A DNA stretch of 40,627 nucleotides, from assembly GCA_030041095.1 (NCBI GenBank), contig JASHON010000086.1, positions 1-40,627 on the forward strand, read 5' to 3'. The DNA comes from Terriglobia bacterium (GTDB taxonomy: Bacteria > Acidobacteriota > Terriglobia > UBA7540). Each line of letters begins with the position of its first letter. The first letter of the stretch is position 1. Position numbers and translations under genes: made by a program. The notes under the pieces were generated by a model, which was not told the DNA's origin, made no database searches, and saw only the letters and a list, made by a program, of their open reading frames with translations. Of this stretch, positions 318-30,976 are shown in pieces.

Positions 318-848
318 ATGAGCGACCCGTACGTCGGTGAGATTCGAATGTTCGGAGGAACCTTCGCGCCGCTGAATTGGGCATTTTGCGATGGCTCGCT
401 GCTTCCCATTTCACAGAATCAGGCACTGTTCAGCTTGCTCGGAACGTTTTACGGCGGGGACGGCGTGCGTACTTTCGCTCTTCCTGATCTGCGCGGCCGA
501 GTGCCGGTGAACATGGGGACAGGACCGGGCCTGAGTAATTACAACCTGGGGCAGGCGGGAGGATCGGAAACCGTAACGCTCACGGTGCAAAATCTGCCTG
601 CGCACACCCACGCGGCCAAGTGCGCTACCACGGCCAACGTCGGAACCCAGTCGAACCCTTCCGGAAACTACTGGTCCACCGACGGAGGCGATAACACGGA
701 AGCTTACAACAATGCTTCGGATAGCAACACGATGGCTGCCAGTGCTCTTGGACAAACCGGCGGGAGCCAGGCGCACAACAACATGCAGCCGTTCCTGGCC
801 GTTAATTACATCATCGCGCTTAACGGTATCTTCCCGCCCCGCTCGTAA
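318..848 (+). CDS. Phage tail-collar domain protein (microcystin-dependent protein type), paralogue 1
   Basis: A 176-residue protein of the tail collar (Mdp/MdpB) family, related to short tail-fibre tips of phages but widespread as stand-alone bacterial genes of unsettled function. Residues 4-62 carry the family N-terminus (PYVGEIRMFGG, then W-x-x-C24-D-G, then LLGTFYGGDG and FALPDLRGR). An H96-T-H98 pair followed by C102 precedes a variable central part, and the C-terminus ends LQPFLAVNYIIALNGIFPPRS. HxH pairs bind metal along the trimer axis in T4 gp12 and gp37, so a metal-centred trimer is a reasonable inference. There is no signal peptide. GGAGGG lies upstream of the ATG. It is the first of three tandem paralogues read from the promoter at 214-242. 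Confidence 0.9.
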   Translation: MSDPYVGEIRMFGGTFAPLNWAFCDGSLLPISQNQALFSLLGTFYGGDGVRTFALPDLRGRVPVNMGTGPGLSNYNLGQAGGSETVTLTVQNLPAHTHAAKCATTANVGTQSNPSGNYWSTDGGDNTEAYNNASDSNTMAASALGQTGGSQAHNNMQPFLAVNYIIALNGIFPPRS

Positions 849-883
849 TTCGGGCATAACCAGCATTCGGAGGACTCACATTT

Positions 884-1402
884 ATGAGCGAGCCTTTTGT
901 CGGTGAAATTCGCGTTTTTGCTTTTAGCTTTGCGCCGACGGGTTGGGCGCTTTGTAACGGCCAACTGCTCCCGATTCAGCAAAATGCGGCCCTGTTTTCC
1001 ATACTCGGAACCACCTTTGGCGGCGACGGCCGAACGAATTTCGCATTGCCGAATCTGCAGGGAAACGTTGTGGTTGACGCTGGGGCGGGAGCGGGGTTAA
1101 CGCCACGCGCCCCCGGTTCTGCCGGCGGCACAACGGCGGAGACCATCACCACTCAGACGATGCCGTCGCACACTCATCCTGCCAACTGCAACAGCGGGAA
1201 TGGAAATCAAGTGGCGCCGGGCGGGAACTTCTGGGCGGCCGAGACGGGCGGCACGAGCGTCTATAGCGGCTCCGCAAATGCTCAAATGGCGGCAGGGGCG
1301 CTCGGCACGACCGGCGGCGCACAATCCCATTCGAATCTTCAACCGTACCTGGTTTTGAATTATTGCATCGCGCTCCAGGGCATTTACCCGTCAAGAAACT
1401 GA
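884..1402 (+). CDS. Phage tail-collar domain protein (Mdp type), paralogue 2
   Basis: A 172-residue paralogue of the gene at 318. The conserved elements are at the same residue numbers: PFVGEIR at 4-10, C24-N-G, GGDGR at 46-50, FALPNL at 53-58, H96-T-H98 and C102. The middle is Gly/Asn/Ala-rich and differs strongly from paralogue 1, while the C-terminal LQPYLVLNYCIALQGIYPSRN is again conserved. This variable-core, fixed-ends pattern suggests a shared fold with diversified exposed surfaces (inference). GGAGG lies 10 nt before the ATG, a rather long spacing. The gap from paralogue 1 is 35 bp, so co-transcription is likely. Confidence 0.9.
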   Translation: MSEPFVGEIRVFAFSFAPTGWALCNGQLLPIQQNAALFSILGTTFGGDGRTNFALPNLQGNVVVDAGAGAGLTPRAPGSAGGTTAETITTQTMPSHTHPANCNSGNGNQVAPGGNFWAAETGGTSVYSGSANAQMAAGALGTTGGAQSHSNLQPYLVLNYCIALQGIYPSRN

Positions 1403-1419
1403 CATAAGGAGAAGCGGTT

Positions 1420-1923
1420 ATGGCCTCACCGTTTATAGGAGAAATTCGGCTATTCGGTTTCGGGTTTAACCCGGTGGGCTGGATGCCGTGCAACGGACAG
1501 TTGCTGCAAATCAACCAGTATCAGGCCCTGTTTTCTTTACTCGGAACCACGTACGGCGGCGACGGCCGCACCACGTTCGCGCTGCCTGACCTTCGCGGCC
1601 GCACCGGCATGCATTTTTCTGCTTCGGGCAACCCCCAGGGGCAGTCGGCTGGCTCGGAATCCGTGACGCTTACGGTCGCTCAGATTCCATCCCATGCGCA
1701 TTCGGTTGCCTGCAGCAACCAGGCAGCCACTCAGCTCAGTCCCAAGGCCGGAGTTTCCGCCATCGATACCTCGTACAATATGTACAGCAACTCGACGGAT
1801 AGCACCATGGCGGCGAATGCCATCGGTCCGGCCGGCAGCAGCGTCCCCCATCCCAACTTGCAGCCGTTCCTTTGCGTCAATTTCTGCATTGCGACCCAAG
1901 GGATCTTTCCGTCTCGAAACTGA
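1420..1923 (+). CDS. Phage tail-collar domain protein (Mdp type), paralogue 3
   Basis: A 167-residue third paralogue. PFIGEIR is at 4-10, then C24-N-G, GGDGR and FALPDLRGR. The metal-type pair is H92-A-H94 with C98, four residues earlier than in the other two because the preceding loop is shorter. The C-terminus LQPFLCVNFCIATQGIFPSRN has two extra Cys. AAGGAG lies upstream of the ATG. The gap from paralogue 2 is only 17 bp, and the downstream acetyltransferase start follows the stop codon by 2 bp, so the four genes look like one transcription unit. Confidence 0.9.
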   Translation: MASPFIGEIRLFGFGFNPVGWMPCNGQLLQINQYQALFSLLGTTYGGDGRTTFALPDLRGRTGMHFSASGNPQGQSAGSESVTLTVAQIPSHAHSVACSNQAATQLSPKAGVSAIDTSYNMYSNSTDSTMAANAIGPAGSSVPHPNLQPFLCVNFCIATQGIFPSRN

Positions 1924-5200: not shown

Positions 5201-5275
5201 AGTCGTTCTCCGTCGAATGCAATCAGTGCTCAGCAATCAGAGATCGGGAGCCAGCAATCGGCGAACGCCGGTGGC

Positions 5276-5414
5276 TTAACAGGCTGCGGAAAAAGTCTTT
5301 CGGGAGTTGACGTAGCGCCGGCTTCCAGCCGGCAACTCCCTTCAATTCAACGGAGGCCGGCAAGATGCCGGCGCTACACTCGCGGCGGCGTCGAGTTTTT
5401 CCGCAGCCTGTTAA
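5276..5414. mobile_element. MITE-like element, copy 1 (perfect terminal inverted repeats)
   Basis: A non-coding 139 bp element bounded by a perfect 19 bp inverted repeat (TTAACAGGCTGCGGAAAAA at the left, its complement at 5396-5414). TTAA is itself palindromic and may be a target duplication, leaving a 131 bp core (5280-5410). The core contains two GC-rich hairpins (GCCGGC-TTCCA-GCCGGC and GCCGGC-AAGAT-GCCGGC), and TAGCGCCGGC also pairs with GCCGGCGCTA across the centre. A second copy at 25147-25277 has the same length with 7 differences by my alignment. There is no coding capacity, so mobility would need a transposase in trans. Confidence 0.75.
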
Positions 5415-5609
5415 GCGGCTTGTTCAGATCTGATTTCTGAGAGCCGATAGTTGAATTGGGGCAACTTTGGTTCCGCAGCGTGGACAAGCTATAAGCGGTT
5501 GAGGCAATTAGGGTTGGCAGTCAGGCCTGACAGAGGGAAAAGGCAAAAGGGTGTCCGATTTCGAGAAAGGAGTGTCCGGAAGCGGACAGCGGGCTTGGCA
5601 CCCGAAACC

Positions 5610-6614
5610 CTAATCTCTGGATTCCAACCGCTGCTTTTCCGCGTGCCATTTCCAAGCGGAAGCGACGATCTCATCAATACTTGAATGTTGAGGAATCCAA
5701 TCGAGGACTCGGCGAGCCCGCGAAGCGTCCGCAACAAGAGACGCTGGATCACCTTCACGCCGCGGAACATCGCGGGAGGGAACGGAGCGATGACCGCTGG
5801 CGCGCGCTACCGCAGCCATCACCTCGCGCACCGAATGCCCACTGCCCGTGCCCAGATTCAACGCACAGCTCTCACCGCCGTCCCGAAGGTGGCGTAGCGC
5901 CTTCACGTGCGCCTCGGCCAAATCCACTACGTGAATGTAATCGCGGATGGCCGTGCCGTCCGGGGTCGGGTAATCTGTTCCGTAAACTTCCACATTGGAG
6001 CGCTGGCCGAGAGTGGCGGCGATGACAAGTGGAATCAAATGGGATTCCGGATGGTGAGCTTCACCAAGCCCGGCTTCAGGATCAGCCCCACAGGCATTGA
6101 AATAGCGCAGCGCCATCCATTGAAGGCCATAGGCGACGCCGTACCATTGGAGCAGGCGCTCCACCATCAGCTTGGACTCGCCGTAGGGACTGACCGGCAG
6201 CGCAGGGTGATCCTCCGGGATCGAAACCTTGATCGGATTGCCATATATGGCTGCTGAAGAAGAAAAGACGATGTTCCTGGCGCCCGCTTCGCGCATGGCT
6301 TCGAGCAGAGCCATCGTGCCCACGGTGTTAATTTGAAAATACTTGTGAGGGTCGCGCATCGACTCACCCACCTGGATAACCCCGGCGAAATGGATGACAG
6401 ACCGTGCGCGGCTTTCGCGGAAAGTTTTGCGTAGTAGGACGGCATCTGAGACGCTGCCCTCCACCAGCTTGCCCCACTTCGCCGCCCATCGGTGGCCCGA
6501 ACTAAAATCATCCAGGACCACGGGCTCGAAGCCGGCTTCCGCCAGCGCCTTTGCGGTCTGGCTGCCGATGTACCCTGCGCCCCCTGTCACCAAAACACGC
6601 ATCGACTCGCTCAT
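5610..6614 (-). CDS. galE: UDP-glucose 4-epimerase
   Basis: A 334-residue short-chain dehydrogenase that interconverts UDP-glucose and UDP-galactose using tightly bound NAD in the cytoplasm. The Rossmann motif TGGAGYIGS is at 10-18, the SSS stretch at 118-120, and the catalytic Y144-x-x-x-K148 in SPYGESK. Other GalE hallmarks are present (FAGVIQVGESM, ALRYFNACGADP, IRDYIHVVDLAEAH, NLGTGSGHSV). Length is normal for the family. The ATG at 6614 has GAGG about 9 nt upstream. It follows the amidase gene by 34 bp in the same direction. It would supply UDP-galactose for surface polysaccharide or feed the Leloir pathway. Confidence 0.93.
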   Translation of the reverse strand: MSESMRVLVTGGAGYIGSQTAKALAEAGFEPVVLDDFSSGHRWAAKWGKLVEGSVSDAVLLRKTFRESRARSVIHFAGVIQVGESMRDPHKYFQINTVGTMALLEAMREAGARNIVFSSSAAIYGNPIKVSIPEDHPALPVSPYGESKLMVERLLQWYGVAYGLQWMALRYFNACGADPEAGLGEAHHPESHLIPLVIAATLGQRSNVEVYGTDYPTPDGTAIRDYIHVVDLAEAHVKALRHLRDGGESCALNLGTGSGHSVREVMAAVARASGHRSVPSRDVPRREGDPASLVADASRARRVLDWIPQHSSIDEIVASAWKWHAEKQRLESRD

Positions 6615-24422: not shown

Positions 24423-24454
24423 GAGGATAGCCAAGTCATGTGGAGGTGTCTATC

Positions 24455-24901
24455 ATGCTTTTCTCAAGACCCAGCGTTTACGGAATTCGCGCACTGAGTT
24501 ACCTTGCCACGTTGCCCCAGGGACGACTCGCCGGCGCAAACGAAATTGCTGCGCACGAGCACATCCCTGCTCCATTCCTCTCCAAGGTGTTGCTGGACCT
24601 GCGGCGGGCGAATCTCCTGCGCTCCCGGCGAGGGACGCGCGGTGGCTTCGGGCTGCTGTTGCCGCCCTCCGAGATCAGCATCAAACAGATTCTGAACTCT
24701 CTTGGAGACAGCCAAGTCCTCACGCAATGCCTGATTGAGGATCATGCCTGCGGCTGCGACAAAGCCTGCGCGCTCCACAGCGCCTGGCACGGCATCCGGG
24801 AGCAACTCCTTCATTTCCTCGAGACCACCACCCTGGCCGAAGTGGTGAACCTCGGGAACGCGAATGGCATCGCTGCAAGCGGCGCCAACGGGGAACGGTA
24901 A
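24455..24901 (+). CDS. Rrf2 family transcriptional regulator (probable Fe-S type)
   Basis: A 148-residue Rrf2 protein. The N-terminal winged HTH is recognisable (YGIRALSYLA, ANEIAAHEHIPAPFLSKVLLDLRRANLLRSRRGTRGGFGL at about 28-67). The cluster region has C92, C99, C101 and C105 (CLIEDHACGCDKACALH), matching the three-Cys [Fe-S] binding loop of IscR/NsrR/RsrR-type members, with one Cys extra. Such proteins sense Fe-S status, NO or redox. The ATG at 24455 has GGAGGT 7 nt upstream; a GTG at 24440 is less likely. It is divergent from the PAS-LuxR gene. Targets are unknown. Confidence 0.88.
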   Translation: MLFSRPSVYGIRALSYLATLPQGRLAGANEIAAHEHIPAPFLSKVLLDLRRANLLRSRRGTRGGFGLLLPPSEISIKQILNSLGDSQVLTQCLIEDHACGCDKACALHSAWHGIREQLLHFLETTTLAEVVNLGNANGIAASGANGER

Positions 24902-25535
24902 GATGATGCCTGGAAACTCGTAGGCGGCTGATGGCGGCCGCCGAACCTTTGGTCTTGGCACTCGTCGTAGTGCCGCATTGCGACTCCGGAAACGCGCGAA
25001 ACGCGTGCTTGTGGAAGTTGAAGCGCGCCCCACCGCGCAACTTCTCAGGCGCGCATCGCTCATGCCACGCCGGGTATTGTGGTGAGCAACGCATACCTTC
25101 AACTCTCTGCGGCAGCACGCGCCACCCTTTCACCCTACGCCTTTCACAGGCTGCGGAAAAACTCTTTCGGGAGTTGACGTAGCGCCGGCTTCCAGCCGGC
25201 AACTCCCCTCAATTCAACGGAGGCCGGCAAGATGCCGGCGCTACGTTCGCGGCGGCGTTGAGTTTTCCCGCAGACTGTTTCAGCGCGGAGATTTTCACGG
25301 ATCTGCCTTCCCGCCTTGCTGCCAACTCCGTGCTGGAGCTTTCGACTGCTCTATTGCGAACAATGAGCGGAGATCATCCCGGCATCTTGGCGCCTCGCTT
25401 TGAGAGATGGAGTACCATAGATCACTCAGTTCGACACGGCGATGAACACAGCGTCCTGCACTGTGGCCTGAGTAGGCGTGTTCCTGAAAGCAGCAAGCGC
25501 GCGGCTCACAAGTGGTCCCATAGGAGAATGAAAGT
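24902..25535. other. 634 bp gene-free spacer with MITE-like copy 2
   Basis: No convincing gene is seen here: short open frames lack family resemblance and good starts. It contains a small GGCACT-AGTGCC hairpin near 24957-24974, the MITE-like element at 25142-25282, and about 250 bp of unassigned sequence upstream of the GMC gene, where the operon's promoter must lie although no clear -35/-10 pair stands out. Confidence 0.6.
25142..25282. mobile_element. MITE-like element, copy 2, with TTTCA flanks
   Basis: The second copy of the 131 bp core (25147-25277) found at 5280-5410; by eye 7 of 131 bases differ. It begins CAGGCTGCGGAAAAA and ends TTTTCCCGCAGACTG, so the terminal inverted repeat has decayed by two bases. 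It is flanked by TTTCA on both sides (25142-25146 and 25278-25282), consistent with a 5 bp target duplication. The internal GCCGGC hairpins are intact. Non-coding. Confidence 0.75.
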
Positions 25536-27158
25536 ATGGGTGGCACACCAAACTATGACGTTTGCATCGTGGGATCGGGCGCGGCGGGCGGCGTGGTGGC
25601 CAAGGAGCTTTGTGAGGGCGGAGCGAAGGTCTTGATGCTCGAAGCCGGCGCCGAAGTCGACCCATCCCACTTTTTGTCCACATTATGGCCTTATCAATTG
25701 CCCTATCGTGGATTTCGAGATGAAAAGCAGGCCTTGTTTTATCCGAACGACATTTCTCCGGTTGTCTACGAGCGCTCCGATCCGGTGAGCGTGGATCGGA
25801 TCCGGGTTCTGGGCGGCCGAACGCTTCATTGGAATGCCGTTGCGCTCCGCTACGCGGCCCTCGATTTCCGCACGCGGTCGCTCGAAGGGTTTGAGGAGGA
25901 TTGGCCGCTTACCTACGAAGAACTTGAGCCTTATTACGACCGGATCGAGCAAATCGTCGGCCTTTGCGGCGAAGATGACCATCTGGAAATCCTGCCGGCC
26001 GGTAAACATTACATGCCGCCTATCCCCTGGCGATGCAGCGAGCACATCCTGCATCGCGCGCTGAAGAAGATGCGTATTCCAATGATCTCTGTACGCAAGG
26101 CGCTGAATACGGTGCCTTACGATGGCCGACCGCCCTGCCACTATTGCGGCCATTGCATGGACGGCGGATGCATGGTTGAGGTGATCTTCACTTCGCCGGA
26201 TTGCATGCTTCCCAAGGCGCGCGCGACGGGGAATTTCACTCTGCGCACGAACGCCGTCGCCAGGGAGATTCTGGTGGACCGGGAAGGGCTGGCGCGCGCC
26301 GTTTCCTACGTCGACCGGGGAGCGCACAACGACAAGCAAGCGCAAGCGAAGATCGTGGTGGTTTGTTGCGCCACCATCGAATCCGCGCGCCTGCTGCTGA
26401 ATTCGCGGTCGCCGCAACATCCGAACGGGCTGGGAAACTCCAATGACGTGGTAGGGCGCTACCTTAGCGGCCACCAGGGCGGCGGAGCGGAGAGCTACCT
26501 AAAAGAACTGGAGGGCCTGACGCCGTGGAACCAGGACGGCGCTACGGATCACGTCTACGTGCCCCGCTACAACCAATTGGAAAGGAAAAAAGATTACGTG
26601 GGCGGATGGGGCATTCAGGTGAATTATGCAAACTACATGTTTCCTCACCATGCCACGCGCGTACATGGCTACGGCGCTGCCTATAAAGAGAGTGTGCGGC
26701 GCATGCAGACAGGCTACCTGATGCTCGGCCCGTTCGGCAAAATCGAGTCACGGCCTGAAAACCGCGTCACGACCAATCCTGACAAGCTGGACAAGTACGG
26801 CATTCCAATTCCCGAAATTCACTTCCGTTTTTCAGAAAACGATTGGGCTCTGTGGCACGACAAGAACCGGAGCCTGGAAGAGATTTTTTCAAATCTGAAG
26901 GCGGACGTGTTTCCCAACTTCGGCAGTTTCCCGGGCGGCTTTGGCAGCCATGAGGTCGGAACGATTCGTATGGGCCCAAACCCCAAGACCTCGGCGCTTA
27001 ACAGTTTTTGCCAGTCACGGGATGTCAAGAACCTCTTCGTCACAGATGGAAGCTGCTTTACCTCGTCCAGCGAGAAGAACCCAACGCTCACCATCATGGC
27101 GCTCTCGCTACGCGCGGCGGATTACATCAAGGAGCAGCGACGGCGTGGGGAATTGTGA
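25536..27158 (+). CDS. GMC family FAD-dependent oxidoreductase
   Basis: A 540-residue GMC flavoprotein, probably the catalytic subunit of a membrane or periplasmic sugar/polyol dehydrogenase. The FAD motif GSGAAG is at 13-18 with E36 for the ribose. The C-terminal catalytic pair is H472 (GSHEVGTIRMG) and N515 (EKNPTLTIMALSLRAAD). A Cys cluster C201-x2-C204-x2-C207-x4-C212 resembles the [3Fe-4S] site of bacterial FAD-glucose dehydrogenase-type GMC proteins. It has no signal peptide, so it may be exported with its Tat-bearing partner encoded 3 bp downstream, as is known for gluconate and glucose dehydrogenases. AGGAG precedes the ATG. First gene of a four-gene operon. Confidence 0.92.
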   Translation: MGGTPNYDVCIVGSGAAGGVVAKELCEGGAKVLMLEAGAEVDPSHFLSTLWPYQLPYRGFRDEKQALFYPNDISPVVYERSDPVSVDRIRVLGGRTLHWNAVALRYAALDFRTRSLEGFEEDWPLTYEELEPYYDRIEQIVGLCGEDDHLEILPAGKHYMPPIPWRCSEHILHRALKKMRIPMISVRKALNTVPYDGRPPCHYCGHCMDGGCMVEVIFTSPDCMLPKARATGNFTLRTNAVAREILVDREGLARAVSYVDRGAHNDKQAQAKIVVVCCATIESARLLLNSRSPQHPNGLGNSNDVVGRYLSGHQGGGAESYLKELEGLTPWNQDGATDHVYVPRYNQLERKKDYVGGWGIQVNYANYMFPHHATRVHGYGAAYKESVRRMQTGYLMLGPFGKIESRPENRVTTNPDKLDKYGIPIPEIHFRFSENDWALWHDKNRSLEEIFSNLKADVFPNFGSFPGGFGSHEVGTIRMGPNPKTSALNSFCQSRDVKNLFVTDGSCFTSSSEKNPTLTIMALSLRAADYIKEQRRRGEL

Positions 27159-27161
27159 GGC

Positions 27162-27701
27162 ATGATGAAACGTCGAAAAGCAATTCAAATTGTGGCCCTG
27201 GGCGCGCTCGCGCCGACGCTCGGTGAAGCTGTGGCGCTGCCACCCGGCACGGCGTGGCGGGCAAAGCATTACCGCTTGCGCTTCTTCACTACGGAAGAAA
27301 ACGAGCTGGCCGACCAGGCGATGGAAATAATCATCCCGGCGGATCATCACTCCCCAGGCGCGCATGAGGCGCAAGTAAGCCTGTTTGCGGATCTGATGGT
27401 GGCCACGAGCGGCAATAGGGTGAAGGCGCGCTGGCGCGACGAATTGCGCCTGCTTCGTGAAGAAGCCGGCCGTTCGTCGCTTGAAGCGGCGCTGGCCAAA
27501 GCCGCAACAAATGAGGGCAGGCCGGAAACCGAGCTCGAGCGATTTTTTGCTAGGCTTAAGGATATGACCGTGAACGGATATTATACGTCCGCCATCGGCA
27601 TCCACCAGGATTTGCGGTACCAAGGCAATACTTATCTCTCTGCTTTTTCGGGATGCAGGATCAAAAAGATTATGGAAAGCGAGGGCGGAGAAACATCATG
27701 A
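27162..27701 (+). CDS. Gluconate 2-dehydrogenase subunit 3-like small subunit
   Basis: A 179-residue protein with a twin-arginine-type N-terminus (MMKRRKAIQIVALGALAPTLGEAVAL) followed by the small-subunit fold (FFTTEENELADQAMEIIIPADHHSPGAHEAQVSLFADLM ... GNTYLSAFSGC). In related enzymes this gamma subunit supplies the Tat signal for the FAD subunit and stabilises it. It begins 3 bp after the GMC stop, and its own stop overlaps the next start (ATGA). Either ATG (27162 or 27165) could be used; GAGG lies just upstream. No cytochrome c subunit is encoded here, so the electron acceptor is unknown. Confidence 0.88.
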   Translation: MMKRRKAIQIVALGALAPTLGEAVALPPGTAWRAKHYRLRFFTTEENELADQAMEIIIPADHHSPGAHEAQVSLFADLMVATSGNRVKARWRDELRLLREEAGRSSLEAALAKAATNEGRPETELERFFARLKDMTVNGYYTSAIGIHQDLRYQGNTYLSAFSGCRIKKIMESEGGETS

Positions 27702-28552
27702 AGTTCGGCATCAATACGCTGGTGTGGACTACGCAAGTGGGTCGGTCCGAGCGAGCCCTGTTTTCGCGCATCAAAAATTGGGGATTCGACGGCGTGGAGC
27801 TTTACCTCTCGCCAGAAGAACCCGCGGAACTCAATTCGGTTAAGCGCATGCTTGACGATCTCCAGCTCGAGCGAACCACCTGCAGCGTCATTCCGAAGCA
27901 AGCGAACCTCGTGAGCCGCGAGCCCGAGGTGCGGGCGCGTGGCGCGCGCTTGTTGAGGGCGTGCATCGAGCGGACGGCGGAATTGGGGGCGCAGCTCATC
28001 TGCGGACCGCTCTATGCCGGACTTGGAGTGATGACGGGAACGCGGAGAACCGAGGAAGAATGGCAGTGGGCCTGCGAGTCACTCCGCAGCGCCGCAACTC
28101 GCGGGCGGGAACTCGGCGTCACGCTTGCCATTGAGCCGCTCAACCGGTTTGAAACTTATTTTCTGAATACCCTCCAAGACGCTGTGAAACTGATTCACGA
28201 CGTGGGTGAGCCGAACGTGCGCATTCACTTTGACACGTTTCACGCAAACATTGAAGAGCGCGACCCGGCAAAAGCGATCCTTGCTGTAGCCAAGGACTTG
28301 AGCCACGTGCATGTTTCAGAAAACGACCGGGGCATCCCTGGCACCGGCCACACGGATTGGCGAGGAATATTCTCCGCACTCAAGATCGCAGGCTACAACG
28401 GCTGGCTCACCATCGAATCCTTTGCCAGGCCTGGGCCGGAATTGGCTGCGGCAGCCGCCATCTGGCGCGATCTCGCTTCTTCGGGCGATGCTCTCGCGGA
28501 GCAAGGCTTGCGGTTCATCAAAACCCTCAGCAGCGAGCTGGGACTGAATTGA
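27698..28552 (+). CDS. Sugar isomerase/epimerase TIM barrel, ketose 3-epimerase-like
   Basis: A 284-residue AP-endonuclease-2/xylose-isomerase-like barrel. E146 (AIEPLNRFE), D179 (HFDTFHANIEE), H205 (HVHVSEND) and E240 (LTIESFA) fall at exactly the spacing of the metal ligands and acid/base Glu residues of D-tagatose 3-epimerase (152, 185, 211, 246). SENDRGIPGTGHTDWRGIFSALK is a typical C-terminal segment. The ATG overlaps the stop of the preceding gene by 3 nt (ATGA), and GGAG lies upstream; upstream in-frame codons belong to the neighbouring gene's frame. It probably epimerises or rearranges the product of the GMC oxidation. 3-keto-glycoside lyase or C-glycoside deglycosidase activity is an alternative within this superfamily. 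Confidence 0.88.
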   Translation: MKFGINTLVWTTQVGRSERALFSRIKNWGFDGVELYLSPEEPAELNSVKRMLDDLQLERTTCSVIPKQANLVSREPEVRARGARLLRACIERTAELGAQLICGPLYAGLGVMTGTRRTEEEWQWACESLRSAATRGRELGVTLAIEPLNRFETYFLNTLQDAVKLIHDVGEPNVRIHFDTFHANIEERDPAKAILAVAKDLSHVHVSENDRGIPGTGHTDWRGIFSALKIAGYNGWLTIESFARPGPELAAAAAIWRDLASSGDALAEQGLRFIKTLSSELGLN

Positions 28553-28564
28553 TGGAGGGACGTG

Positions 28565-29830
28565 ATGAACGAAAGCACGGCATGGCGCCGGCGGAAATTT
28601 CTGAAGTCCGCAGGCGCTATCTCTGCGGGTGTCGCCGGCCTCTCCTCCGGAACTTTGCGAGCGAAGCCGTTGTCCGCTGCGTCCGGTGAGCCCGGCGGCG
28701 CCCTACCGCTCGAAAGCACGCCCGCCGGAGACGACGCCATCGCCTTCCGCAAGTACACGTTGGATCTGGGCATGAGCGAAGCTGTGGCCGTTGTGGACAT
28801 GAACCGCGACGGCCGGTTGGATATCATCTCCGGCGAAAACTGGTACGAACAATTGCCGCACGAACCGGGTAGCGGGCCGCATTTTATCAGGCACAAGTTC
28901 CGCGAGCTGCCCTACACTTTCGATTACCTGGAAGATCTGAGCGACCTCGCGATTGACGTCAACGGCGACGGCTATCCGGACATTGTCACTTGTTCCTATT
29001 GGTCAAAACCGCTGACTTGGTGGGAGAATCCCGCAGGGAAAAAACAGCCATGGCGCGAGCATCTGATCGAGTCCGGCTCGCCCGTCGAATTCGTCTTTCT
29101 CGTCGATCTGCTCAACACGGGCAGGCCGCTCCAGCTTCTGCCACAATTTGGCAATCGCAATTTCCCTTTGACTTGGTACGAGCTGGCGGGCCCTGGCGCA
29201 TCAAACGCGTGGATCAAGCATGAGGTCAGTCCGAAGAGTTACGGCCACGGAATTGGCGCCGGAGATGTAAATGGCGACGGCCGCACGGATATCATCACGC
29301 CTCAAGGCTGGTTTGAAGCGCCGGCAGACCCCCGGCACGGTAAGTGGCTTTTTCATGACGAATTCGATCTGGGCATGGCCGGCTTTATCTACACGCAAGA
29401 CGTGAATGGAGATGGCCTGGCAGACCTGGTTACAACCAGCGCGCACGATTATGGCATTTTCTGGTACGAGCAAAAGCGCGCAGCCGCTGGGAAACGAAGC
29501 TGGACCAAGCACGTGATCGATAATGCCTGGTCGCAAGCACACGCGATGACGTTGGCGGACTTGAACCACGATGGAAGGCTCGAGCTCGTTACCGGCAAGC
29601 GCTATTACGCCCATGACCACGATCCGGGAGCCAACGAGCCACTCGGCGTCTACTGGTACGAGCAGCTTACTGCGAGCGATCCTGTGAAATGGAAGCGGCA
29701 CGTCGTGGAATACAGCACGCGCACCGGCGGTGGAATGCAGGTGGCCGTGGTGGATATTGATGGCGACGGCCGCCTGGACATCGTGGTAGGAGGAAAATCC
29801 GGCTTGTTTCTGTTTCATCATCTGGCCTGA
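28565..29830 (+). CDS. Exported FG-GAP/VCBS repeat protein
   Basis: A 421-residue protein with a Tat signal (WRRRKFLKSAGAISAGVAGLSSG) and about six Asp-rich calcium loops: DMNRDGRLDI, DVNGDGYPDI, DVNGDGRTDI, DVNGDGLADL, DLNHDGRLEL and DIDGDGRLDI. FG-GAP units build a beta-propeller, here with W-Y-E motifs between them. Such proteins bind or present ligands and are common near carbohydrate-oxidising gene sets in Acidobacteria, Verrucomicrobia and Planctomycetes (recalled). The ATG at 28565 with GGAGGG upstream is preferred over a GTG at 28562. It is the last gene of the operon, with a 12 bp gap from the epimerase. Enzymatic activity is not evident. Confidence 0.85.
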   Translation: MNESTAWRRRKFLKSAGAISAGVAGLSSGTLRAKPLSAASGEPGGALPLESTPAGDDAIAFRKYTLDLGMSEAVAVVDMNRDGRLDIISGENWYEQLPHEPGSGPHFIRHKFRELPYTFDYLEDLSDLAIDVNGDGYPDIVTCSYWSKPLTWWENPAGKKQPWREHLIESGSPVEFVFLVDLLNTGRPLQLLPQFGNRNFPLTWYELAGPGASNAWIKHEVSPKSYGHGIGAGDVNGDGRTDIITPQGWFEAPADPRHGKWLFHDEFDLGMAGFIYTQDVNGDGLADLVTTSAHDYGIFWYEQKRAAAGKRSWTKHVIDNAWSQAHAMTLADLNHDGRLELVTGKRYYAHDHDPGANEPLGVYWYEQLTASDPVKWKRHVVEYSTRTGGGMQVAVVDIDGDGRLDIVVGGKSGLFLFHHLA

Positions 29831-30198: not shown

Positions 30199-30888
30199 TT
30201 AGGAAACGCGAGCCTTCTTCGGGAAACGGCGGGTGACGACCAGGCCAAGCGCGATTAGCGCAAGCGTGAACAGGCTCAAGGAGCTTGGCTCGGGAACGGA
30301 CGGTGTCATACCGGAAATAGTCAAACCGGAGGTGCCGACTTCGCCGTGGAACCCTTTGCTGGAGTTGAACGTCACTCCCGTAAAGGTCTGGGCCTCGGAA
30401 CCTCTGGCCCCGGTAATTTTGAAATACGAGAGGATCATGGAGTTGACGGTCAGCGAGGTTAAATCGCCGCCGAAGGTGCCGGTACCAGTTGAAAAGAACG
30501 TGCTCGATCCGTCAGCGAAAGTAGCGGTCACGAGCGTCGTTCCTGCCGGAATGCCGAGCGCCGAAACTCCACCTGTGAGGGTTAGTGTTCCACCGGTCCC
30601 AAAAACCACGGAGCAGGTGGCACTGCTGCACATGCTTTTGGCGGCGCCGCTGGTGAGGGTTATCAATCCACCCTGAACTGAGACGTCCAGTGCGGAATTC
30701 ACCAAGTCGGATATACCAGTGATCGATGCTCCAGGAGTCACAAGCGAACTGGAGGTTGTGTTGCCAAAGGAGAAAGTTCCTTTGGTTCCTTGAAATGAAA
30801 TCGTATCGGCCATCGCAGACACACCGACGAAGAGGCACGACACAAGAACTGCCGCGAGGCCGATGACGAGCCTTCTTGGTTTCCTCAT
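30199..30888 (-). CDS. PEP-CTERM sorting domain protein 2
   Basis: A 229-residue exported protein. The signal peptide is MRKPRRLVIGLAAVLVSCLFVGVSAMADT. The C-terminal exosortase signal has PEP at 199-201, a hydrophobic helix (SLFTLALIALGLVVT) and the basic tail RRFPKKARVS. The body is a Thr/Ser/Gly-rich beta-type domain (TISFQGTKGTFSFGN ... GTGTFGGDLTSLTVNS) that I do not recognise; a CSSATC pair may form a disulfide. AAGGAG lies at 5-6 nt from the ATG at 30888, which is preferred over an upstream in-frame start at 30915. Its leader contains a 10 bp-stem RNA hairpin. Confidence 0.85.
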   Translation of the reverse strand: MRKPRRLVIGLAAVLVSCLFVGVSAMADTISFQGTKGTFSFGNTTSSSLVTPGASITGISDLVNSALDVSVQGGLITLTSGAAKSMCSSATCSVVFGTGGTLTLTGGVSALGIPAGTTLVTATFADGSSTFFSTGTGTFGGDLTSLTVNSMILSYFKITGARGSEAQTFTGVTFNSSKGFHGEVGTSGLTISGMTPSVPEPSSLSLFTLALIALGLVVTRRFPKKARVS

Positions 30889-30976
30889 GCTGTCTCCTTC
30901 GAAACAGATTGGCAAATCCCAGCGGCGGCGGCACGCTGGAAATGATTGACCTCGGGTCCCGGCAGATTCAGTCTCT

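Follow-up and report, generated by a model that had tools for sequence, protein, structure and literature searches.

A four-gene cluster in a Terriglobia bacterium (contig JASHON010000086.1, confirmed at 25536-29830 by open reading frame (ORF) coordinates) encodes, in order, a GMC-type flavin adenine dinucleotide (FAD) dehydrogenase, its putative small subunit, a TIM barrel resembling ketose 3-epimerases and an FG-GAP/VCBS propeller (Table 1). The whole 40,627-nucleotide stretch that was analysed is referred to as the window, and its source assembly totals 4.9 Mb in 207 contigs. Our preferred reading, to which we give a little less than an even chance, is that this operon serves a split-compartment oxidation of sugars, in which an exported GMC complex and an exported dehydratase or eliminase would act together with a cytosolic epimerase. 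The second of these resembles aldos-2-ulose dehydratase (AUDH), a fungal enzyme that takes water out of oxidised sugars.

In the pathway we propose, the GMC protein would fold in the cytoplasm with FAD and probably an iron-sulphur (Fe-S) cluster, and would be carried across the membrane by the small subunit, which bears a twin-arginine translocation (Tat) signal. The exported complex would oxidise a hydroxyl of a sugar or glycoside to a ketone, passing its electrons to a separately encoded acceptor. The Tat-exported propeller would then act as an AUDH-like, metal-dependent dehydratase or eliminase. A metal held by central histidines would polarise the ketone, and Glu175, which stands where AUDH has His155, would help to take the alpha proton, so that either water or a glycosyl group departs. 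Finally, a keto-sugar product would be imported, and the barrel would isomerise it at the position adjoining the ketone. AUDH and ketose 3-epimerases both act on the proton adjacent to a C2 ketone, and this shared chemistry leads us to favour C2 oxidation slightly over C3; C3 oxidation followed by beta-elimination in the propeller also fits. Gene content, residues and linkage were computed; localisation, metal, substrate and step order we infer.

The ORF coordinates match the layout given in a preliminary description of this DNA, that of four genes with 3-bp, overlapping and 12-bp junctions. Three base pairs lead to the small subunit if it starts at ATG 27162 (ATG 27165 is the other candidate, and the stop is at 27701), followed by a 4-bp ATGA overlap (27698-27701) and by 12 bp to the propeller ATG at 28565, for which GTG 28562 is an alternative. 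Pfam identifies GMC_oxred_N (4.8e-10) and GMC_oxred_C (2.9e-19) in the first gene, Gluconate_2-dh3 (PF13618, 5.7e-16) in the second, AP_endonuc_2 (PF01261, 6.4e-47) in the third, and FG-GAP_3 (3.4e-34) and FG-GAP (4.7e-29) in the fourth. Judged by eye, the GMC protein and the barrel have N-termini without a signal peptide, and twin-arginine N-termini are seen in the small subunit (KRRKAIQIVALGAL) and the propeller (RRRKFLKSAG).

Table 1 Predicted features of the operon and the repeat element upstream of it
Feature	Position	Strand	Description	Basis
GMC FAD dehydrogenase, GDH-alpha/FDH-L type	25536..27158	+	540 aa	Pfam, PDB matches, invariant residues
Gluconate_2-dh3 small subunit	27165..27701	+	178 aa; twin-arginine signal	PF13618, invariant N-terminal RR
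Ketose 3-epimerase-like TIM barrel	27698..28552	+	284 aa	PF01261, 7erm/7dz5 matches, invariant residues
FG-GAP/VCBS propeller, 7-bladed, AUDH-like	28565..29830	+	421 aa	Model, Foldseek, VIA-align, profile alignment, residue mapping
66-bp inverted-repeat (REP-like) element	25179..25244	.	Upstream of operon	Genome-wide repeat

The propeller and its likeness to AUDH

An AlphaFold2 model of the propeller has seven blades and a mean predicted local distance difference test score (pLDDT) of 82. When this model was compared with known structures by Foldseek, AUDH (4a7k) ranked first (E 1.7e-9), with CRTAC1 next (2.1e-9). VIA-align superimposed it on AUDH 4a7z with a Z of 29.4 and a root-mean-square deviation of 3.7 (339 aligned, 16% identity), placing AUDH 3 Z units ahead of the runners-up, LGI1 and CRTAC1 (Z 26.2). 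At the level of sequence, a 72-row propeller profile, made up of 63 of 80 gene hits and 9 other rows after fragments and long fusions had been excluded, reached 4a7k with an E of 6.7e-8; most of this match is a single colinear stretch (profile 110-345, AUDH 127-389). An excerpt of a survey of VCBS proteins also counts AUDH among the members of this superfamily (PMC8023676).

Glu175, His294 and His326 are invariant in 72/72 rows of the propeller family, with His228 present in 63/72, Lys345 in 69/72 and Arg346 in 71/72. In the alignment to AUDH, Glu175 corresponds to His155, His228 to His215, His294 to His295 and His326 to His337, and 15 of the 37 columns with at least 90% conservation are identical in AUDH, versus 48 of 229 overall (p 0.002). 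PDB titles of AUDH entries name ascopyrone M as an intermediate and refer to a metal in the active site. In a 2012 paper on AUDH, zinc in the propeller reportedly polarises the C2 ketone, with His155 suggested as the base. We infer that the aligned histidines of the propeller are probable metal ligands. The preliminary description had called this protein an unusual propeller partner; the fold match and the aligned residues now give it a candidate role as an AUDH-like keto-sugar dehydratase. The twin-arginine N-terminus and calcium-type loops of that description, which had it as a Tat-exported calcium-loop propeller, are seen in this protein. The RR is kept in only part of the relatives, others looking Sec-type by eye.

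The same features bear on a different explanation, one that we consider rather unlikely, in which the GMC enzyme turns a polyol or sugar into a ketose, the barrel epimerises it at C3, and the propeller is a non-catalytic, calcium-stabilised sugar-binding (lectin-like) or scaffold protein for capturing the substrate. The nearest relatives of the barrel are indeed ketose 3-epimerases, and PLL/PHL lectins are found together with other FG-GAP propellers among the Foldseek matches. A purely structural role sits poorly, however, with the lead of AUDH over the next VIA-align match, and with the finding that Glu175, His294, His326, Lys345 and Arg346, which lie outside the calcium loops, are conserved in rows from several phyla, a pattern that looks catalytic.

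Returning to the AUDH-like dehydratase that we prefer, there are a number of results that speak against it. Overall identity to AUDH is low, and the cupin and lectin domains of the fungal enzyme are absent (421 versus 900 amino acids). FG-GAP propellers without known enzyme activity, such as CRTAC1 and integrins, match too: with the 72-row profile, CRTAC1 scores better than AUDH via short stretches (E 1.3e-8) and integrins follow, and integrin alpha-IIb has a histidine at the same blade position. AUDH was not returned by a single-sequence search with the propeller (E up to 1), nor by one using its C-terminal part as the query (E up to 10), and a 19-row profile gave it an E of 0.016; the likeness emerged clearly with the structure model and with the larger profile of 72 rows. 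A search for AUDH_Cupin (PF18637) had matches in 0/297 genomes of the phylum and was silent also in the controls (0/14), so that these zeros do not show the domain to be missing from the phylum.

Many environmental bacteria have FG-GAP/VCBS propellers, and annotation as a rule stops at "repeat protein". Among the best 80 of at least 250 relatives of this propeller, record titles name Acidobacteria, Planctomycetota, Verrucomicrobia, Hydrogenedentota, Armatimonadetes, Lentisphaerae and Fibrobacteres, together with Bacteroidota genera such as Dyadobacter, Spirosoma and Maribacter, the closest named relatives being from Acidobacteria/Terriglobia. It is conceivable, and we offer this more guardedly than the pathway itself, that this large, unassigned exported family comprises bacterial metal-dependent keto-sugar dehydratases or eliminases related to fungal AUDH. 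They would act after interchangeable exported oxidoreductases, either GMC with its hitchhiker or a Gfo/Idh protein of Tat type, and would pass the product to a ketose-3-epimerase-like enzyme in Acidobacteria. If so, the candidate site (Glu175, His228, His294, His326) and the oxidase-epimerase context would mark this family of propellers as candidate extracellular sugar lyases. Literature searches, mostly without subscription papers, turned up no bacterial propeller of this AUDH-like kind, and no relevant work on the four-gene combination.

The dehydrogenase pair and the epimerase-like barrel

The top PDB matches of the GMC protein are FAD glucose dehydrogenases (6a2u, E 1.4e-51; 8hdd, E 2.1e-51), and fructose dehydrogenase is matched as well. 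In an alignment of 17 rows, which takes in paralogues, His472 and Asn515 are invariant and align to the His and Asn of 6a2u, which we take to be the catalytic pair of GMC enzymes. Also invariant in 17/17 rows are Cys201, Cys207 and Cys212, which align to Cys212, Cys218 and Cys222 of 6a2u, as is an additional Cys204. In the Burkholderia cepacia enzyme those three cysteines ligate a 3Fe-4S cluster, according to the available part of its report (PMC6719666). The window protein has one extra residue (Gly) in this motif, at about 26134-26175, giving CxxCxxCx4C where the other 16 rows have CxxCxxCx3C. Two other assignments of the GMC protein were rejected: as a pyranose oxidase it scores 80 bits with TIGR02462 against a cut-off of 544.9, and as a choline dehydrogenase it falls far under the curated cut-off.

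The N-terminal RR of the small subunit is kept in 10/10 rows, fitting the role of a Tat hitchhiker, and each of the five PF13618 matches in the genome lies, by coordinates, beside a GMC match. Foldseek comparison of a small-subunit model (pLDDT 73.6) with the PDB gave nothing better than E 1.4, and a sequence search of the PDB matched no gamma subunit. The assignment of the first gene to sugar-type FAD dehydrogenases with a Tat partner is supported, as the preliminary description had proposed on finding an FAD enzyme without a signal peptide beside a Tat-bearing protein, and it is probable that the small subunit co-exports the GMC protein as a hitchhiker. As to the electron acceptor, Pfam detects no cytochrome c among the four operon genes, nor among the same-strand neighbours scanned, namely an Rrf2 regulator and a tRNA methyltransferase-type protein (the gene at 30199-30915 (-) lay outside the scan).

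Turning to the barrel, its top PDB matches are D-tagatose 3-epimerases (7erm, E 4.8e-48; 7dz5, E 8e-48). Glu146, Asp179, His205 and Glu240, together with Glu152, His182 and Arg211, are invariant in 11/11 rows; the first four presumably correspond to the metal ligands of ketose 3-epimerases and the last three to their ketose-binding residues. With the NCBIfam model for D-psicose 3-epimerase the barrel scores 180.9 bits, under the cut-off of 300. A ketose 3-epimerase-like enzyme, as had been suggested for this gene from the start, is supported by the matches and by these residues. Since the barrel lacks a signal peptide by eye, it should remain cytoplasmic.

The barrel was also considered as a C-/O-glycoside beta-eliminase (CGE/OGE) and rejected in this role. 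In the accessible part of a report on these enzymes, the catalytic His of AtOGE lies two residues past the first metal ligand (His132/His134), its counterpart in PuCGE being His143 (PMC10628242). In the barrel, Glu146-x-Leu148 is invariant in 11/11 rows, with Leu148 standing where CGE and OGE have the catalytic His, so that cleavage of 3-keto-glycosides by the barrel in their fashion is unlikely. A link to known GMC and TIM-barrel pairs in C- and O-glycoside cleavage, along the lines of the preliminary description, is not supported, given these residues and the lack of a 3-keto-disaccharide hydrolase among the four genes. A PF06439 protein of that kind was likewise rejected as an operon partner: no match to it falls within the operon, and the three PF06439 matches of the genome are on other contigs.

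What survives of the earlier idea is a version in which the cleavage role is shifted from the barrel to the propeller: the GMC complex oxidises C3, and the exported propeller beta-eliminates the 3-keto-glycoside, leaving a product for the barrel to hydrate or epimerise. We regard this route as doubtful. In its favour, an excerpt from published work describes a GMC glycoside 3-oxidase gene beside C-deglycosidase genes (PMC10646112), glycoside hydrolases occur among some neighbours, and 3keto-disac_hyd is found in 2/126 nearest neighbours of propeller genes. The Hydrogenedentota locus L121 has, as judged by eye, a PF06439-like gene beside the propeller, besides the far-end GMC pair described below. 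These points have to be set against the lack of the CGE/OGE catalytic His, the placement of PF06439 elsewhere in the genome, and the PDB-nearest relatives of the GMC protein, which are glucose C1 and fructose dehydrogenases rather than 3-oxidases.

Linkage of the four genes and their neighbours

To follow the genes in relatives (loci and genomes carry our L and G numbers), we searched 39 genomes at the level of the family and, with up to four candidates scored per genome, 349 at that of the class. Ten places in the class hold the GMC gene at at least 70% identity, with one partial match uncounted, and 8/10 have all four genes in the same order: the window, L029 and L030 in one family and L186-L190 in another. 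L030 belongs to the same genus as the window, L029 to another. Of the other two, L031 has an IolI-like barrel instead of the epimerase-like one, and L032 has a Gfo/Idh gene upstream, with no small subunit found beside the GMC gene. Other orders occur at L196, in a third family (small subunit, GMC, propeller, barrel), and at L107, a named Terriglobia contig (barrel, propeller, then GMC running off the contig). Since relatives also have the four genes linked, and not always in one order, the association lies above chance, and the refutation named in the preliminary description, that the four genes are not co-conserved, does not hold. In a 29-row tree of GMC proteins, from which L187 was excluded because of its broken GMC frame, the label "all four genes" (8 rows) requires 3 changes, versus a mean of 7.2 for shuffled labels, and at least two changes are forced by well-supported (starred) branches. 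On this evidence the set was joined, or was retained as others lost it, more than once.

Several of these loci have features of their own. L030 has one small gene inserted within the four-gene set, a 122-amino-acid, helical-bundle-like gene by eye (5254-5619), lying with short repeats between the small subunit and the barrel. A cytochrome c gene (PF13442) at L196 (8696-9571), divergent from the adjoining small subunit, is a candidate electron acceptor. Genome G424 has two operon copies, the GMC gene of L187 carrying an in-frame TAG and that of L188 being open; similarly, the epimerase-like gene beside the propeller at L076 (G014:C342) has an in-frame TGA, and that genome holds an open copy too, on another contig.

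Two modules, GMC with the small subunit and barrel with the propeller, which are often apart, describe these data best. In the family, the GMC gene is found at at least 64% identity in 12/39 genomes (one match partial) and the propeller at at least 60% in 14/39, with a further fragment in G010 not counted. The barrel adjoins the propeller in 13/14, the exception being G035. At L075, L077 and L083 the barrel-propeller pair, without GMC, follows a Tat-type Gfo/Idh/MocA oxidoreductase (L083 by Pfam; the twin-arginine starts of these proteins were judged by eye), as if the sugar oxidant upstream of the pair were exchangeable.

On the other side of the balance, the GMC gene is linked to the barrel-propeller pair in only 3/12 family genomes with a close GMC (the window, L030 and L029), though in at least two of the nine unlinked, G005 and G006, it lies at a contig end, where linkage is not judgeable. 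In 6/9 family genomes with both, GMC and the pair are on different contigs. Nine genomes share the two, of 12 and 14 respectively among 39 (p 0.0013; kinship ignored), whereas by genus, with 6 and 7 positive out of 18, the overlap is 4 (p 0.12, not significant). Nine further acidobacterial propeller loci (L108-L115, L136; 53-60% identity) have an adjoining barrel only at L115, and the sole GMC match seen there is a distant one (31%) at L108. Finally, Gfo/Idh enrichment near propellers is weak, at 5/126 nearest neighbours versus 2/101 control genes 5-6 places off.

The separate contigs and the genus-level result would also be expected if the four were a loose set of sugar genes without a common pathway, linked by shared regulation or chance. 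We think this very improbable in view of four-gene loci in three families and two orders and of the near-constant adjacency of barrel and propeller.

The nearest neighbours of propeller genes (126 of 146 scanned, long proteins excluded) include 5 AP_endonuc_2, 5 Gfo/Idh, 2 GH4 and the 2 3keto-disac_hyd proteins mentioned above, the AP_endonuc_2 count taking in the barrel that belongs to the pair at L106, L107 and L115. A survey of glycoside hydrolases (GH), which covers part of the neighbours, found GH28 and GH78 flanking GMC-small subunit at L037, one on each side, a GH38-like gene near GMC at L033, GH2 directly upstream of the operon at L190 and GH106 about 3 kb from it at L188. The GH39 match at L029 falls under its cut-off, and none was found among the neighbours scanned at L186 and L189. 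By eye, a CxxCH protein, the distant GMC and a Tat protein resembling the small subunit stand in a row at L108 (9658-13004) and may make up a whole three-subunit dehydrogenase; also by eye, L121 has a GMC and small-subunit-like pair at its far end, that GMC being absent from the tblastn results.

Around the operon itself, an Rrf2-family regulator (PF02082) is encoded upstream on the same strand (24440-24901). Rrf2 proteins are frequent sensors of Fe-S status, and such a regulator could suit an Fe-S dehydrogenase. Between the regulator and the operon lies the 66-bp inverted repeat of Table 1 (GTAGCGCCGGC...GCCGGCGCTAC), which has a further window copy at 5312-5377; genome-wide, a 22-base pattern taken from one half of the repeat has 152 occurrences (81 forward, 71 reverse; reversed control 0), and the repetitive extragenic palindromic (REP)-like element is probably no functional part of the operon. 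Directly 3' of the operon is a PEP-CTERM-like protein by eye (VPEPSSLSLFTLALIALGL...RRFPKKA; 30199-30915, minus strand), and three tandem ORFs at window 318-1923 resemble tail-collar/MdpB-like proteins, also by eye.

Comparison with known systems

The first two genes resemble the gamma-alpha part of the Burkholderia cepacia FAD glucose dehydrogenase (6a2u), which, in the part of its report available, has the same GMC subunit with His/Asn and three Fe-S cysteines and a Tat small subunit; the operon described here differs in having no cytochrome c gene, in the extra Cys204, and in His202, which replaces the Cys213 that forms a disulphide to the small subunit (PMC6719666). The PsG3Ox GMC 3-oxidase and C-deglycosidase cluster (PMC10646112) and the AtOGE operon (PMC10628242), both as described in excerpts, likewise encode an oxidoreductase with isomerase-like or deglycosidase partners; the CGE/OGE barrels, however, carry the catalytic His lacking here, and the excerpt on the PsG3Ox cluster mentions no FG-GAP protein. 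Ketose 3-epimerases acting on D-tagatose, L-ribulose and D-allulose (7erm, 7dz5, 3vyl, 5zfs) have the same four metal ligands and Glu/His/Arg as the barrel, which is instead encoded with an exported dehydrogenase and a propeller and scores under the D-psicose 3-epimerase cut-off.

The propeller compares most closely with AUDH, a dehydratase/isomerase, of Phanerochaete chrysosporium (4a7k, 4a7y, 4a7z). The two are alike in their seven blades, in a W-x-E-N-P motif with a following Trp, in a His at three aligned positions and in a late calcium-type loop. The protein described here differs in being single-domain and bacterial, with a Tat signal, more calcium-type loops, Glu175 in place of His155, and a GKR-AH stretch that meets a gap when aligned with AUDH. 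In fungi, AUDH acts downstream of a GMC enzyme, pyranose 2-oxidase; the operon, if our reading of it is right, suggests a bacterial counterpart of this pyranose-oxidase/AUDH route to rare sugar products.

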